From Burkholderiales bacterium (lineage in GTDB: Bacteria > Pseudomonadota > Gammaproteobacteria > Burkholderiales > Burkholderiaceae_C), in assembly GCA_025360385.1 (NCBI GenBank), contig JANYCG010000116.1:1-38593 (forward strand): 38,593 nt of DNA. The letters run 5' to 3'. The notes under the pieces are model-generated. The model ran no database searches and was not told the DNA's origin. It worked only from the letters and a program-made list of their open reading frames with translations. This document shows positions 3,050 through 6,249 of the stretch, piece after piece. Numbering within the stretch: the stretch's first letter is position 1; each line of letters starts with the position of its first letter. Made by a program: the position numbers and the translations under genes.

Positions 3050-3502
3050 GTGAAAACTAACACACAAACGACCCGCCACGTATTTGGTTTTACCTTGATT
3101 GAGTTGTTGGTTGTGGTTGCCATTATTGGAATATTAATGGCCGTGGCATTGCCCGCTTATACCAACTACGTGCAACGCGGCTTTCGCGCCAATGCCAAAG
3201 CCGTATTGTTGGAGTCCGCACAATTTATGGAGCGTTATCGCTCCGTTAACTTCAGCTATCCGGATGGGTCTACCGCCGGACAAACCTTACCCACCGCATT
3301 GAGTGTTTCCCCAAGGCAAGGAACCAAAAATTACGACATTGCAATCGACACGACGCCCACGGCCGCTATACGGGCGACATCCTTCACTTTGACTGCAACG
3401 CCCAGTGGCTGGACGGACACAATTTGTGGAAACCTGACGATTACCAATCTCGGCAAAAAAGGCCAATCCTTGGGCACCGCAGCTGACTGCTGGAGTCGTT
3501 GA
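3050..3502 (+). CDS. pilE: Type IV minor pilin PilE
   Basis: From the GTG at 3050 the protein has 150 residues. The prepilin signal is clear: a short basic leader ending in Gly, then FTLIELLVVVAIIGILMAVA, with Glu at +5 and the conserved hydrophobic helix. PilD should cut after the Gly and methylate the Phe. The globular part ends with two cysteines (DTICGN ... ADCWSR), the usual C-terminal disulfide loop. The frame is open further 5' to 2996, but that would overlap pilY1 and give an odd long leader; GTG 3050 gives a 13-residue leader, the normal size. No strong Shine-Dalgarno is visible, so translation may depend on coupling from pilY1. As the last gene of the minor-pilin operon it should join the priming complex with PilY1 rather than form the main fibre. 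Confidence 0.9.
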   Translation: MKTNTQTTRHVFGFTLIELLVVVAIIGILMAVALPAYTNYVQRGFRANAKAVLLESAQFMERYRSVNFSYPDGSTAGQTLPTALSVSPRQGTKNYDIAIDTTPTAAIRATSFTLTATPSGWTDTICGNLTITNLGKKGQSLGTAADCWSR

Positions 3503-3522
3503 TGCGAAGGTGCTGCACACCG

Positions 3523-3972
3523 CTACCTGCGCACCTCATCCACCAGCGCCCGAAACTCGTCAATGTCCTCAAAACTGCGGTAAACGCTGGCAAACCGCAC
3601 GTAGGCGACTTTGTCTAGTTTCTTGAGTTCGCGCATCACCAGCTCGCCGATCCGGGCCGAGGGCACTTCGCGTGCGCCCAGGTTAAGCAGTTTTTCTTCG
3701 ATGCGCTCGATGGCGCTGTCTACCTGCTCAATGCTGACCGGGCGTTTGCGCAGCGCCAGGCTCATCGAAGCCAGCAGCTTGACGCGTTCAAACTCGATGC
3801 GCCGACCGTCTTTTTTGACGATGGCCGGAAAGTTGACATCGGGCCGCTCATAAGTGGTGAACCGCTTGTCGCAAGCCCCGCATTGGCGGCGCCGGCGAAT
3901 GAAATCCCCGTCTTCAGAAACCCGGGTTTCGACGACCTGGGTTTCGGAATGACCGCAAAACGGGCACTTCAT
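3523..3972 (-). CDS. nrdR: Transcriptional repressor NrdR
   Basis: This 149-residue protein has the family's normal length and order. A zinc ribbon with Cys3, Cys6, Cys31 and Cys34 comes first (MKCPFCG ... [13 protein letters not shown]), followed by an ATP-cone from about residue 49 to 139 ([19 protein letters not shown] onward). NrdR binds NrdR boxes before ribonucleotide reductase genes and senses ATP/dATP through the cone, repressing dNTP synthesis when dATP is high. It starts 20 nt after the glyA stop on the same strand, so it is probably translated from the glyA transcript and falls under the ZTP riboswitch in the glyA leader. It converges with pilE with a gap of about 20 nt and no obvious terminator between them. 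Confidence 0.97.
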
Positions 3973-3992
3973 TCAACTGCCTTTGAAAACCG

Positions 3993-5237
3993 TCATTGGT
4001 AGACCGGGAATCGCGTCGTCAAGGCATTCACCTTGGCTCTCACCACCGCGATATTGACGCCATCACGGGGCTTGTCCAGCACATCGGCGATCAGGTTGGC
4101 GGTGGCGCGGGCTTCTTCTTCTTTGAAGCCGCGTGTGGTCATGGCCGGGGTGCCAATGCGCACGCCGCTGGTGATCATGGGTTTTTCGGGGTCATTGGGA
4201 ATGGCATTTTTGTTGATGGTCATGTGGGCTGAACCCAAAACGGCTTCGGCTTCTTTGCCGGTGATGCCCTTGGCCCGCAGGTCGACCAGCATGACATGGC
4301 TTTCGGTGCGGCCGCTCACAATGCGCAGACCACGGGCTGTCAAGGTGTCCGCCACGATCTGGGCATTTTTGACCACTTGCTGCTGGTAAAGCTTGAATTC
4401 AGGCTGAAGCGCTTCTTTAAAGGCGACTGCTTTGGCCGCGATCACGTGCATCAACGGGCCGCCTTGCAGGCCGGGGAAAATGGCGCTGTTGATGGTTTTT
4501 TCGTGCTGGGACTTCATCAATATGAAGCCGCCACGCGGGCCGCGCAGGCTCTTGTGGGTGGTGCTGGTGACGACGTCGGCATGGGGCACCGGGTTGGGGT
4601 AAACACCGGCGGCAATCAGGCCTGCGTAATGGGCCATGTCCACCATGAAAATCGCGCCAACATCTTTGGCCACTTTGGCAAAACGGGCAAAGTCAATGCG
4701 CAATGAATAGGCGGACGCGCCAGCGATGATCAACTTGGGTTTGGCTTCGTGTGCCTTTTTTTCCATCGCGTCGTAGTCGATCTCTTCTTGGGCGTTCAAG
4801 CCGTAAGAGACGACGTTGAACCATTTGCCGCTCATGTTCAGGGGCATGCCGTGGGTCAAATGGCCGCCTTCGGCCAGGCTCATGCCCAAAATCGTATCGC
4901 CGGGCTTTAAAAAAGCCAGAAAAACCGCCTCGTTGGCCGACGCGCCGCAGTGCGCCTGCACGTTGGCGCAATCTGCGCCAAAAATCTGTTTGACGCGGTC
5001 AATGGCCAGTTGTTCAGCCACGTCCACGTGTTCGCAGCCACCGTAATACCGTTTACCGGGGTAACCCTCGGCGTATTTGTTGGTCAGTTGCGTGCCTTGC
5101 GCGGCCATGACGGCCGGGGAGGCGTAGTTTTCGCTGGCGATCAGCTCGATGTGCTGTTCCTGGCGCAGGTTTTCAGCCTGGATGGCGGCAAAAATCTCGG
5201 GGTCGGCTTGTTCGATCAATAGGTCGCGTGAGTACAT
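3993..5237 (-). CDS. glyA: Serine hydroxymethyltransferase
   Basis: GlyA is a PLP enzyme that converts serine and tetrahydrofolate to glycine and 5,10-methylene-THF, the main one-carbon source for purines, thymidylate and methionine. The protein has 414 residues, normal for the family. The PLP lysine is K229 in [13 protein letters not shown], with D200 and H203 (MVDMAHYAG) upstream as expected. [23 protein letters not shown] and GHLTHG are all present. The start at 5237 has AGGA about 8 nt upstream; another ATG pair just upstream is out of frame. It is the first gene of glyA-nrdR, and a ZTP riboswitch lies in its leader. Confidence 0.98.
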
Positions 5238-5312
5238 GGCAGTCCTGACATGAAGGTCATAAGAGACGATGGCTCCTGCGAATTCGCCAAGTTTTCACCA
5301 GCGGATTCAAGG

Positions 5313-5440
5313 GCTGCCCAGGCGAACGGCTGAACACAATGCCCTTGCAGGCATTGCGGTGCGCTTCCCAGTGGTAATCCCACGTCGGCAAGCCACGCCC
5401 TCAGGGGCTGATTGCCTATCGCCAGTTGCGTACGAACTGA
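5313..5440 (-). promoter_or_regulatory. ZTP/ZMP (pfl) riboswitch in the glyA leader
   Basis: Read on the minus strand, the leader carries the conserved pieces of the pfl/ZTP aptamer in order. ACTGGCGATA (about 5426-5417) is followed by ACGTGGGATTACCAC (5385-5371), TGGGAAGCGC, a linker hairpin with CAATGCC/GGCATTG arms (5356-5337), and the 3' signature GCCGTTCGCCTGGGCA (about 5330-5315). GTACGC and GCGCAC can pair as P1 with one mismatch, and GGCAA/TTGCC closes an inner helix. The class senses AICAR phosphates (ZMP/ZTP), which build up when 10-formyl-THF is short, and switches on one-carbon and purine genes; glyA is a fitting target. No T-run follows the aptamer, so control may act on translation or through a weak terminator. 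The match is from memory of the consensus and was not scored with a covariance model. Confidence 0.87.
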
Positions 5441-5490
5441 TTTTAGCCGACGCCCGCGTTATAGGGGGGGCGGGGGCTGGAAGGCCCGGC

Positions 5491-6249
5491 TTACAGCGTC
5501 GCCGATGGTTTATGGCCCAGCGACACCAGTTTCAGGCGTTCGTATTCGGCCATGACCTTGGCGGCATACCCCCCATCAAGCTCATTATTGCCAGCGCCGA
5601 CGTAAAACTTCAGCCCCGCTTCAATCGAGCCGGCGCGGCTGATACATTCCTGCAAAACCTTGACCCCCACCCGCAGATTGGTGACCGGATCAAACGCAGC
5701 CAGTTTGCCGCCAAAACCTTCGTATTTGTCGCTGTGCACCTTGGTCATGACCTGCATCAGGCCTTGGGCCCCCACCGCGCTTTGGGCGAAGGGGTTGAAG
5801 CCCGATTCCACCGCCATCACGGCCAAAATCAGCTTGGGATCCAGTTTGATGCGGCTGCCAATCTCAAATGCCTCCACAACCAAGGCGCTGACGGGCTCAG
5901 GCGCCACGCGGTATTTTTTGCTCAGCCAAAACGCCAGGTCAGCCTGTGACTTGGGCAATTCGCGCGGGTCGGCCGCTGTGGCGCGGTCCGCTGTATCCGT
6001 TTGCCTTGCTGCTGCGTCTTCCAAGGCGTCCATGCCGTCGGCGTTGGCCGCGTGGCGGTCTTGCAACCAGCCCATCAGATGCACCTCACCCAGGCGGCGC
6101 AAGTCGGGCTGGGCTGCCAGCATCATGCCGACAAAAATAACGGCCAGTCCAAGCAGCGCAAAGCTGTTGCTGGTGAATTCATAAGCAGTCTTGGCACATT
6201 GCGTCACAAAGTTACGCACGGCATTCACTGCGGTTCCTGTCGCTGTCAT
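5491..6249 (-). CDS. Membrane-anchored lytic transglycosylase (SLT domain)
   Basis: I chose the ATG at 6249 because GGAAGAG lies just upstream; the frame is open to 6330 but that start has no ribosome site. The result is 252 residues. One hydrophobic segment at about residues 29-47 (FALLGLAVIFVGMMLAA) should anchor it in the inner membrane with the catalytic part in the periplasm. The SLT domain spans about 120-245, with catalytic Glu148 in AVESGFNPFAQSAVGAQGLMQV-type sequence (split: AVESGFNPFAQ, then GAQGLMQV). Such enzymes cut the MurNAc-GlcNAc bond in peptidoglycan to form 1,6-anhydro ends, for wall turnover or for making room for envelope machines. The usual YNAG motif reads YVGAGN here. 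The gene lies upstream of glyA with a 253-bp gap and is probably a separate unit. Confidence 0.9.
   Translation of the reverse strand: MTATGTAVNAVRNFVTQCAKTAYEFTSNSFALLGLAVIFVGMMLAAQPDLRRLGEVHLMGWLQDRHAANADGMDALEDAAARQTDTADRATAADPRELPKSQADLAFWLSKKYRVAPEPVSALVVEAFEIGSRIKLDPKLILAVMAVESGFNPFAQSAVGAQGLMQVMTKVHSDKYEGFGGKLAAFDPVTNLRVGVKVLQECISRAGSIEAGLKFYVGAGNNELDGGYAAKVMAEYERLKLVSLGHKPSATL

Follow-up and report, generated by a model that had tools for sequence, protein, structure and literature searches.

A ZTP riboswitch before glyA in a Burkholderiales bacterium, with the glyA ribosome-binding site as the likely partner of its P3 strand

The stretch of DNA analysed here, called the window below, comprises the 38,593 nucleotides of contig JANYCG010000116.1 from a Burkholderiales bacterium (assembly GCA_025360385.1). 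Three features lie close together on its minus strand: a ZMP/ZTP aptamer of Rfam family RF01750 (5309–5439), an open reading frame of 414 aa (3993–5237), and a second frame of 149 aa (3523–3972) with an SD-like AAAGG of its own. From family features, we take the first frame to be glyA, encoding serine hydroxymethyltransferase, and the second to be nrdR, encoding the ribonucleotide reductase repressor. Matches were obtained in 145 of 150 genomes of the order for the former and in 143 of 150 for the latter. An earlier note on this DNA had placed the start of nrdR 20 nt past the glyA stop codon on the same strand, and the coordinates bear this out (glyA 5237–3993, nrdR 3972–3523).

The same note, which gave no strand, had claimed a ZTP riboswitch in the glyA leader on the basis of four aptamer signatures in the right order, and had asked for a score with the Rfam pfl/ZTP model. 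When the whole window was run against 4227 families with cmscan, RF01750 matched positions 5439–5309 of the minus strand with 47.6 bits, above the gathering cut-off of 39 (E = 6.8e-5), and the alignment spanned the full model, 1–86. This was the single RF01750 match found in the 4.12-Mb assembly (E = 1.7e-6 in the genome scan). The four signatures are found in the claimed order on the minus strand, at the coordinates claimed for them. The 3′ end of the aptamer lies 71 nt from the glyA start at 5237. On the strength of the Rfam match and of its place in the leader of a folate/purine gene, we identify the element as a ZTP riboswitch, with ligand binding presumed.

The Rfam alignment and the sequence together place J1/2, GGCG, at 5420–5423 and the P3 hairpin at 5316–5330, formed by GCC (5330–5328) and GGC (5318–5316) around a loop containing CGCC (5324–5321). 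Pairing of J1/2 in a pseudoknot is an established property of ZTP riboswitches; here J1/2 and the P3 loop, the 5′ and 3′ halves of the pseudoknot, are complementary, and the predicted fold joins them in a helix, GGCGA/UCGCC. The fold also contains a linker hairpin within the aptamer (5358–5335) and a stable extra hairpin of about 30 nt inserted in J1/2 (5416–5387). Such an inserted hairpin was present in 63 of 64 aptamers measured from the same family and in five of seven measured from other families, 22 of 86 leaders having been left out of this count as the pattern was not found in them; the Rfam consensus, as aligned to the window, is without it. A downstream segment, UUGGCGAA (5290–5283), was considered as a competitor of J1/2 for the P3 loop and was rejected: it occurs between P3 and the AUG in one of 86 family leaders, that of the window alone.

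A −10-like hexamer, TAAAAT, adjoins the aptamer at 5440–5445 on the minus strand, and according to this prediction transcription would begin at or close to the foot of P1. Among leaders of the same family, 37 of 75 could be used for a count of such elements, 38 being dropped because the J1/2 position was unusable or too little upstream DNA was available. A match of at least four of six positions was found in 31 of these 37, in all cases 20–23 nt before J1/2, and the mean of the best scores upstream of J1/2 was 3.54 of 6, compared with 1.16 in control stretches. No −35 element of the leader promoter was recognised. A strict promoter scan of 3400–5600 returned no promoter for either the leader or nrdR; that it found no separate nrdR promoter says little, because the same scan missed the likely promoter of the leader.

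ZTP riboswitches before glyA have already been published, and the window presents one more case. The gene is among those given for pfl RNAs in 2010, and the window resembles that motif (RF01750) in its full-length covariance match over the cut-off and in its glyA target (PMC2864571); it differs in the J1/2 hairpin of about 30 nt and in that a minus-strand terminator was not found. A survey of Herbaspirillum placed a ZTP riboswitch, Hsnc029, before glyA in Herbaspirillum seropedicae, the likeness to the window being the same riboswitch family and the same target; the available text of that paper contains neither the word nrdR nor an expression platform (PMC7011215).

Within the family of the window, a ZTP match at E ≤ 0.001 was obtained in 158 of 200 genomes, in 131 of them over the cut-off. 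A sample of the order yielded matches in 30 of 300 genomes, spread over this family and four others, and a sample of the class in two of 229, namely the genome that contains the window and one more from the same family. A glyA frame was present at 97 of 99 ZTP loci, and the remaining two were cut by a contig end. The 42 family genomes without a ZTP match are in part false negatives. Of 21 that were searched, 19 gave a glyA match; 11 of the 18 glyA loci with a placeable start carry CGCCTGGGC in the leader, and four of 16 scanned loci had a sub-threshold RF01750 match of 30–33 bits before glyA. ZTP-like aptamers with long inserts, scoring 30–33 bits, stand upstream of glyA at loci L100, L102, L103 and L109. 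As aptamers of this kind score below the Rfam cut-off, counts made by the cut-off understate the family.

The expression platform had been left open by the earlier note. The leader reads GGGCAGCCCUU right after the P3 loop and AGGACUGCC right before the glyA AUG. The sequence GGCAG-C-CCU (5310–5318), which comprises the P3 3′ strand and its continuation, is complementary to 5246–5238, that is, to the glyA ribosome-binding site (5238–5246), which consists of the SD sequence AGGA and of CUGCC directly before the AUG. GGCAG (5318–5314) and CC (5312–5311) face GG-A-CUGCC (5245–5238), so that the pairing runs from GGCAG:CUGCC through one C·A mismatch to CCU, which is able to pair with AGG. This pairing uses the GGC of P3 and reaches the SD sequence; it and P3 are mutually exclusive. 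The duplex GGCAG-C-CCU/AGG-A-CUGCC has a calculated energy of −11.8 kcal/mol, equalled or bettered by 4 of 100 shuffles. In the unconstrained ensemble of the window, pair probabilities were 0.63–0.90 for GGCAG:CUGCC and 0.44 for CC:GG, and the last U of the masking strand preferred a different partner.

The likely platform is therefore masking of the ribosome-binding site by the P3 3′ strand, with CUGCC as the proposed invader of P3, and we consider it probable that the riboswitch acts in this way as a translational ON switch. Ligand binding, switching and the ON direction are what we infer. Without ligand, the P3 3′ strand and the following bases would pair with the SD sequence and spacer of the glyA ribosome-binding site, which would break P3 and hide the start of glyA. 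During a shortage of 10-formyl-THF, bound ZTP or ZMP would hold P3 and the pseudoknot together and free the ribosome-binding site; glyA would then be translated and one-carbon supply would rise.

To see whether the pairing recurs, leaders of relatives were compared. Loci L043 and L061 (contig ends) and L118 (a chance P3 match of a loose pattern) were left out before counting, and L086 and L087 (variant P3) were omitted from the leader table. No other five-base word is as common as CUGCC before the glyA start in the family. Of the 86 same-family leaders bearing P3, 62 have it within 20 nt of the start, compared with about three expected from shuffles, and in 35 of the 62 it lies directly against the AUG. 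Its presence goes with the flank of P3. Where this reads GGGCAG, CUGCC occurs in 62 of 75 leaders; where it reads otherwise, in none of 11 (Fisher test, 1e-7, phylogeny ignored). In 20 glyA leaders of the order chosen for having no ZTP match, the word does not occur within 16 nt of the start; one of the 20 has CUGCC within 20 nt, and one has a chance P3-like word. Nor does it occur within 16 nt of the start in six family leaders without a detected P3, one of them (L119) belonging to a second, more distant glyA copy. Another of the six (L114) is truncated 36 nt from the start, too short for its P3 to be judged.

These counts bear on the alternative that CUGCC is merely an inherited feature of the glyA ribosome-binding site in this lineage, with no pairing to P3 and with some other platform in charge. 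We regard this as unlikely; against it stand the absence of the word from the last 16 nt of all 26 control leaders and from the leaders in which GGGCAG is lost. It draws support from a test on the glyA tree, which was not significant: among 84 leaders (two of the 86 were left out for a short glyA) there were seven independent pairs, about three in the same direction and none in the opposite one (p = 0.25); the test is underpowered. Leaders with a changed P3 flank also speak for it in part. In 18 of these, one being a chance P3 match, the leader's own strand paired with its ribosome-binding site better than the consensus strand in seven cases, equally well in two and worse in nine. Compensation is suggested by individual leaders: in L039, GGGCAC goes together with GUGCC, although the modelled pairing probability there is only 0.03, and in L023 the mismatch is turned into a pair, giving −21.7 kcal/mol.

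Thermodynamic support for masking of the ribosome-binding site, as judged from folding models, is mixed. The duplex energy averaged −10.7 in 87 leaders, L118 still being among them, compared with −6.1 in the 26 controls; individually, just 49% of the 87 beat their own shuffles at the 5% level. A pairing probability above 0.5 was reached in just 18 of the 62 leaders with CUGCC. In a modelled ligand-like state, the ribosome-binding site opened in 41 of the 62 and closed in three, and it opened also in 13 of the 24 leaders without CUGCC. Two such models were used, one in which P3 alone was forced and the pseudoknot bases were kept unpaired, and one in which the downstream part was folded alone; neither kind of model can hold a pseudoknot. 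For the window itself, the unpaired fraction of the ribosome-binding site went from 0.30 in the free to 0.21 in the ligand-like state with P3 forced, and from 0.36 to 0.38 with the downstream part alone; neither model makes the site clearly more accessible. As 24 of 86 leaders are without CUGCC, the platform is not universal even within the family.

Masking of the glyA ribosome-binding site has to be weighed against a transcriptional platform, in which transcription would end prematurely in the unbound state, either by Rho or at a non-canonical terminator. Many pfl RNAs are overlapped by predicted terminators, and one invader studied in detail gives rise to a terminator (PMC2864571, PMC10085676); Rho could, moreover, add polarity to a translational switch. 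In the window, the terminator scan of 3400–5600 found two terminator-like sites, with 3.1 expected by chance, both on the plus strand and none on the minus strand, in agreement with the earlier statement that no clear terminator follows the aptamer. The conserved partner of P3 is, besides, the ribosome-binding site itself, lying directly against the AUG as often as noted above. A transcriptional platform thus seems improbable here.

The masking platform would use the same P3 strand as a terminator-type switch elsewhere. When no ligand is bound to the pfl switch of Clostridium beijerinckii, its invader starts pairing at the 3′ bases of P3; there the invader leads to a terminator, whereas the invader proposed for the window is the ribosome-binding site (PMC10085676). 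For the glyA ZTP switches of a single bacterial family, the pairing described here provides a translational platform that can be tested. For the ZTP riboswitch of Pectobacterium carotovorum, the downstream gene is reportedly rhtB and so differs from the window's glyA. A reporter of that riboswitch, a translational lacZ fusion, was raised by trimethoprim (PMC10117056).

Outside the family of the window but within the order, the complement of P3 mostly stands 62–129 nt ahead of the AUG or cannot be placed clearly; seven of 22 loci have one that beats shuffles at p ≤ 0.05. The platform is not to be generalised to these families. A complement at 62–129 nt, with no obvious U-run, was observed at L072, L074, L076–L078, L081, L082 and L084–L087; this suggests a different platform at such loci, not all of which beat shuffles. 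At L095, in another family, GGGCAU occurs with AUGCCC directly against the AUG (p = 0.185 compared with shuffles), possibly a variant of the pairing between P3 and the ribosome-binding site in the window.

The riboswitch had been said to govern glyA and probably nrdR as well, and if nrdR does follow glyA, an alarmone of folate shortage would be linked directly to how dNTP synthesis is controlled. The evidence supports the riboswitch and glyA as its target; the step to nrdR fares less well. The gene follows glyA at 67 of 75 ZTP loci of the family, and the eight misses comprise two loci that stop at the end of glyA or within it, five that reach 164–228 nt past glyA, and one (L049) that extends 615 nt with no nrdR. 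At loci of other families it follows glyA in eight of 22, the misses covering at most 211 nt past glyA. Of the 75 gaps measured between the two genes, 73 are 3–113 nt long, and the other two 322 and 385 nt. The arrangement is, however, also common where no switch is detected. With adjacency defined as one strand and less than 700 nt apart, and with six of the 143 nrdR genomes left out for having no glyA among the matches listed, the two genes were adjacent in 109 of the 137 order genomes with both among the matches listed. By ZTP status, taken from a filtered search that loses weak matches, these were 10 of the 11 genomes in which an aptamer was detected and 99 of the 126 in which it was not (again among the matches listed). 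As adjacency is usual without the switch, the pair does not depend on the riboswitch, and its distribution suggests that it is older.

The gene nrdR probably shares a transcript with glyA. Because the platform acts on glyA translation, it has no direct reach to nrdR, which has its own SD-like sequence and could be affected only via translational coupling or transcriptional polarity; that nrdR follows glyA indirectly is conjecture. We therefore hold it possible but doubtful that ZTP sets the level of NrdR through a glyA–nrdR transcript, such that folate shortage would raise one-carbon supply together with NrdR and restrain ribonucleotide reductase. Searches for the ZTP riboswitch with glyA or nrdR, for glyA with nrdR, and for NrdR with serine hydroxymethyltransferase returned no title or abstract about a link from ZTP to dNTPs, and those for glyA and nrdR none about shared regulation. 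A comparative study never found NrdR under autoregulation (PMC5343134).

Besides the 20-nt gap and the frequency of the pair at ZTP loci, joint control is favoured by the region upstream of nrdA in the window's own genome. The gene itself was found by PF02867 at L140 403–3381, and the frame after it is, from its features, presumably nrdB. A tandem NrdR-box-like pair, 32 nt apart, lies at L140 271–318 (G000:C7:44668-44715), 84 nt before the nrdA start. If joint control were true, a ZTP–NrdR circuit would match dNTP synthesis to thymidylate supply. Scored against the box consensus, the pair reaches 38 of 44, whereas the highest score within the 38.6-kb window is 30, and its position before nrdAB makes a path from ZTP through NrdR to nrdAB anatomically possible.
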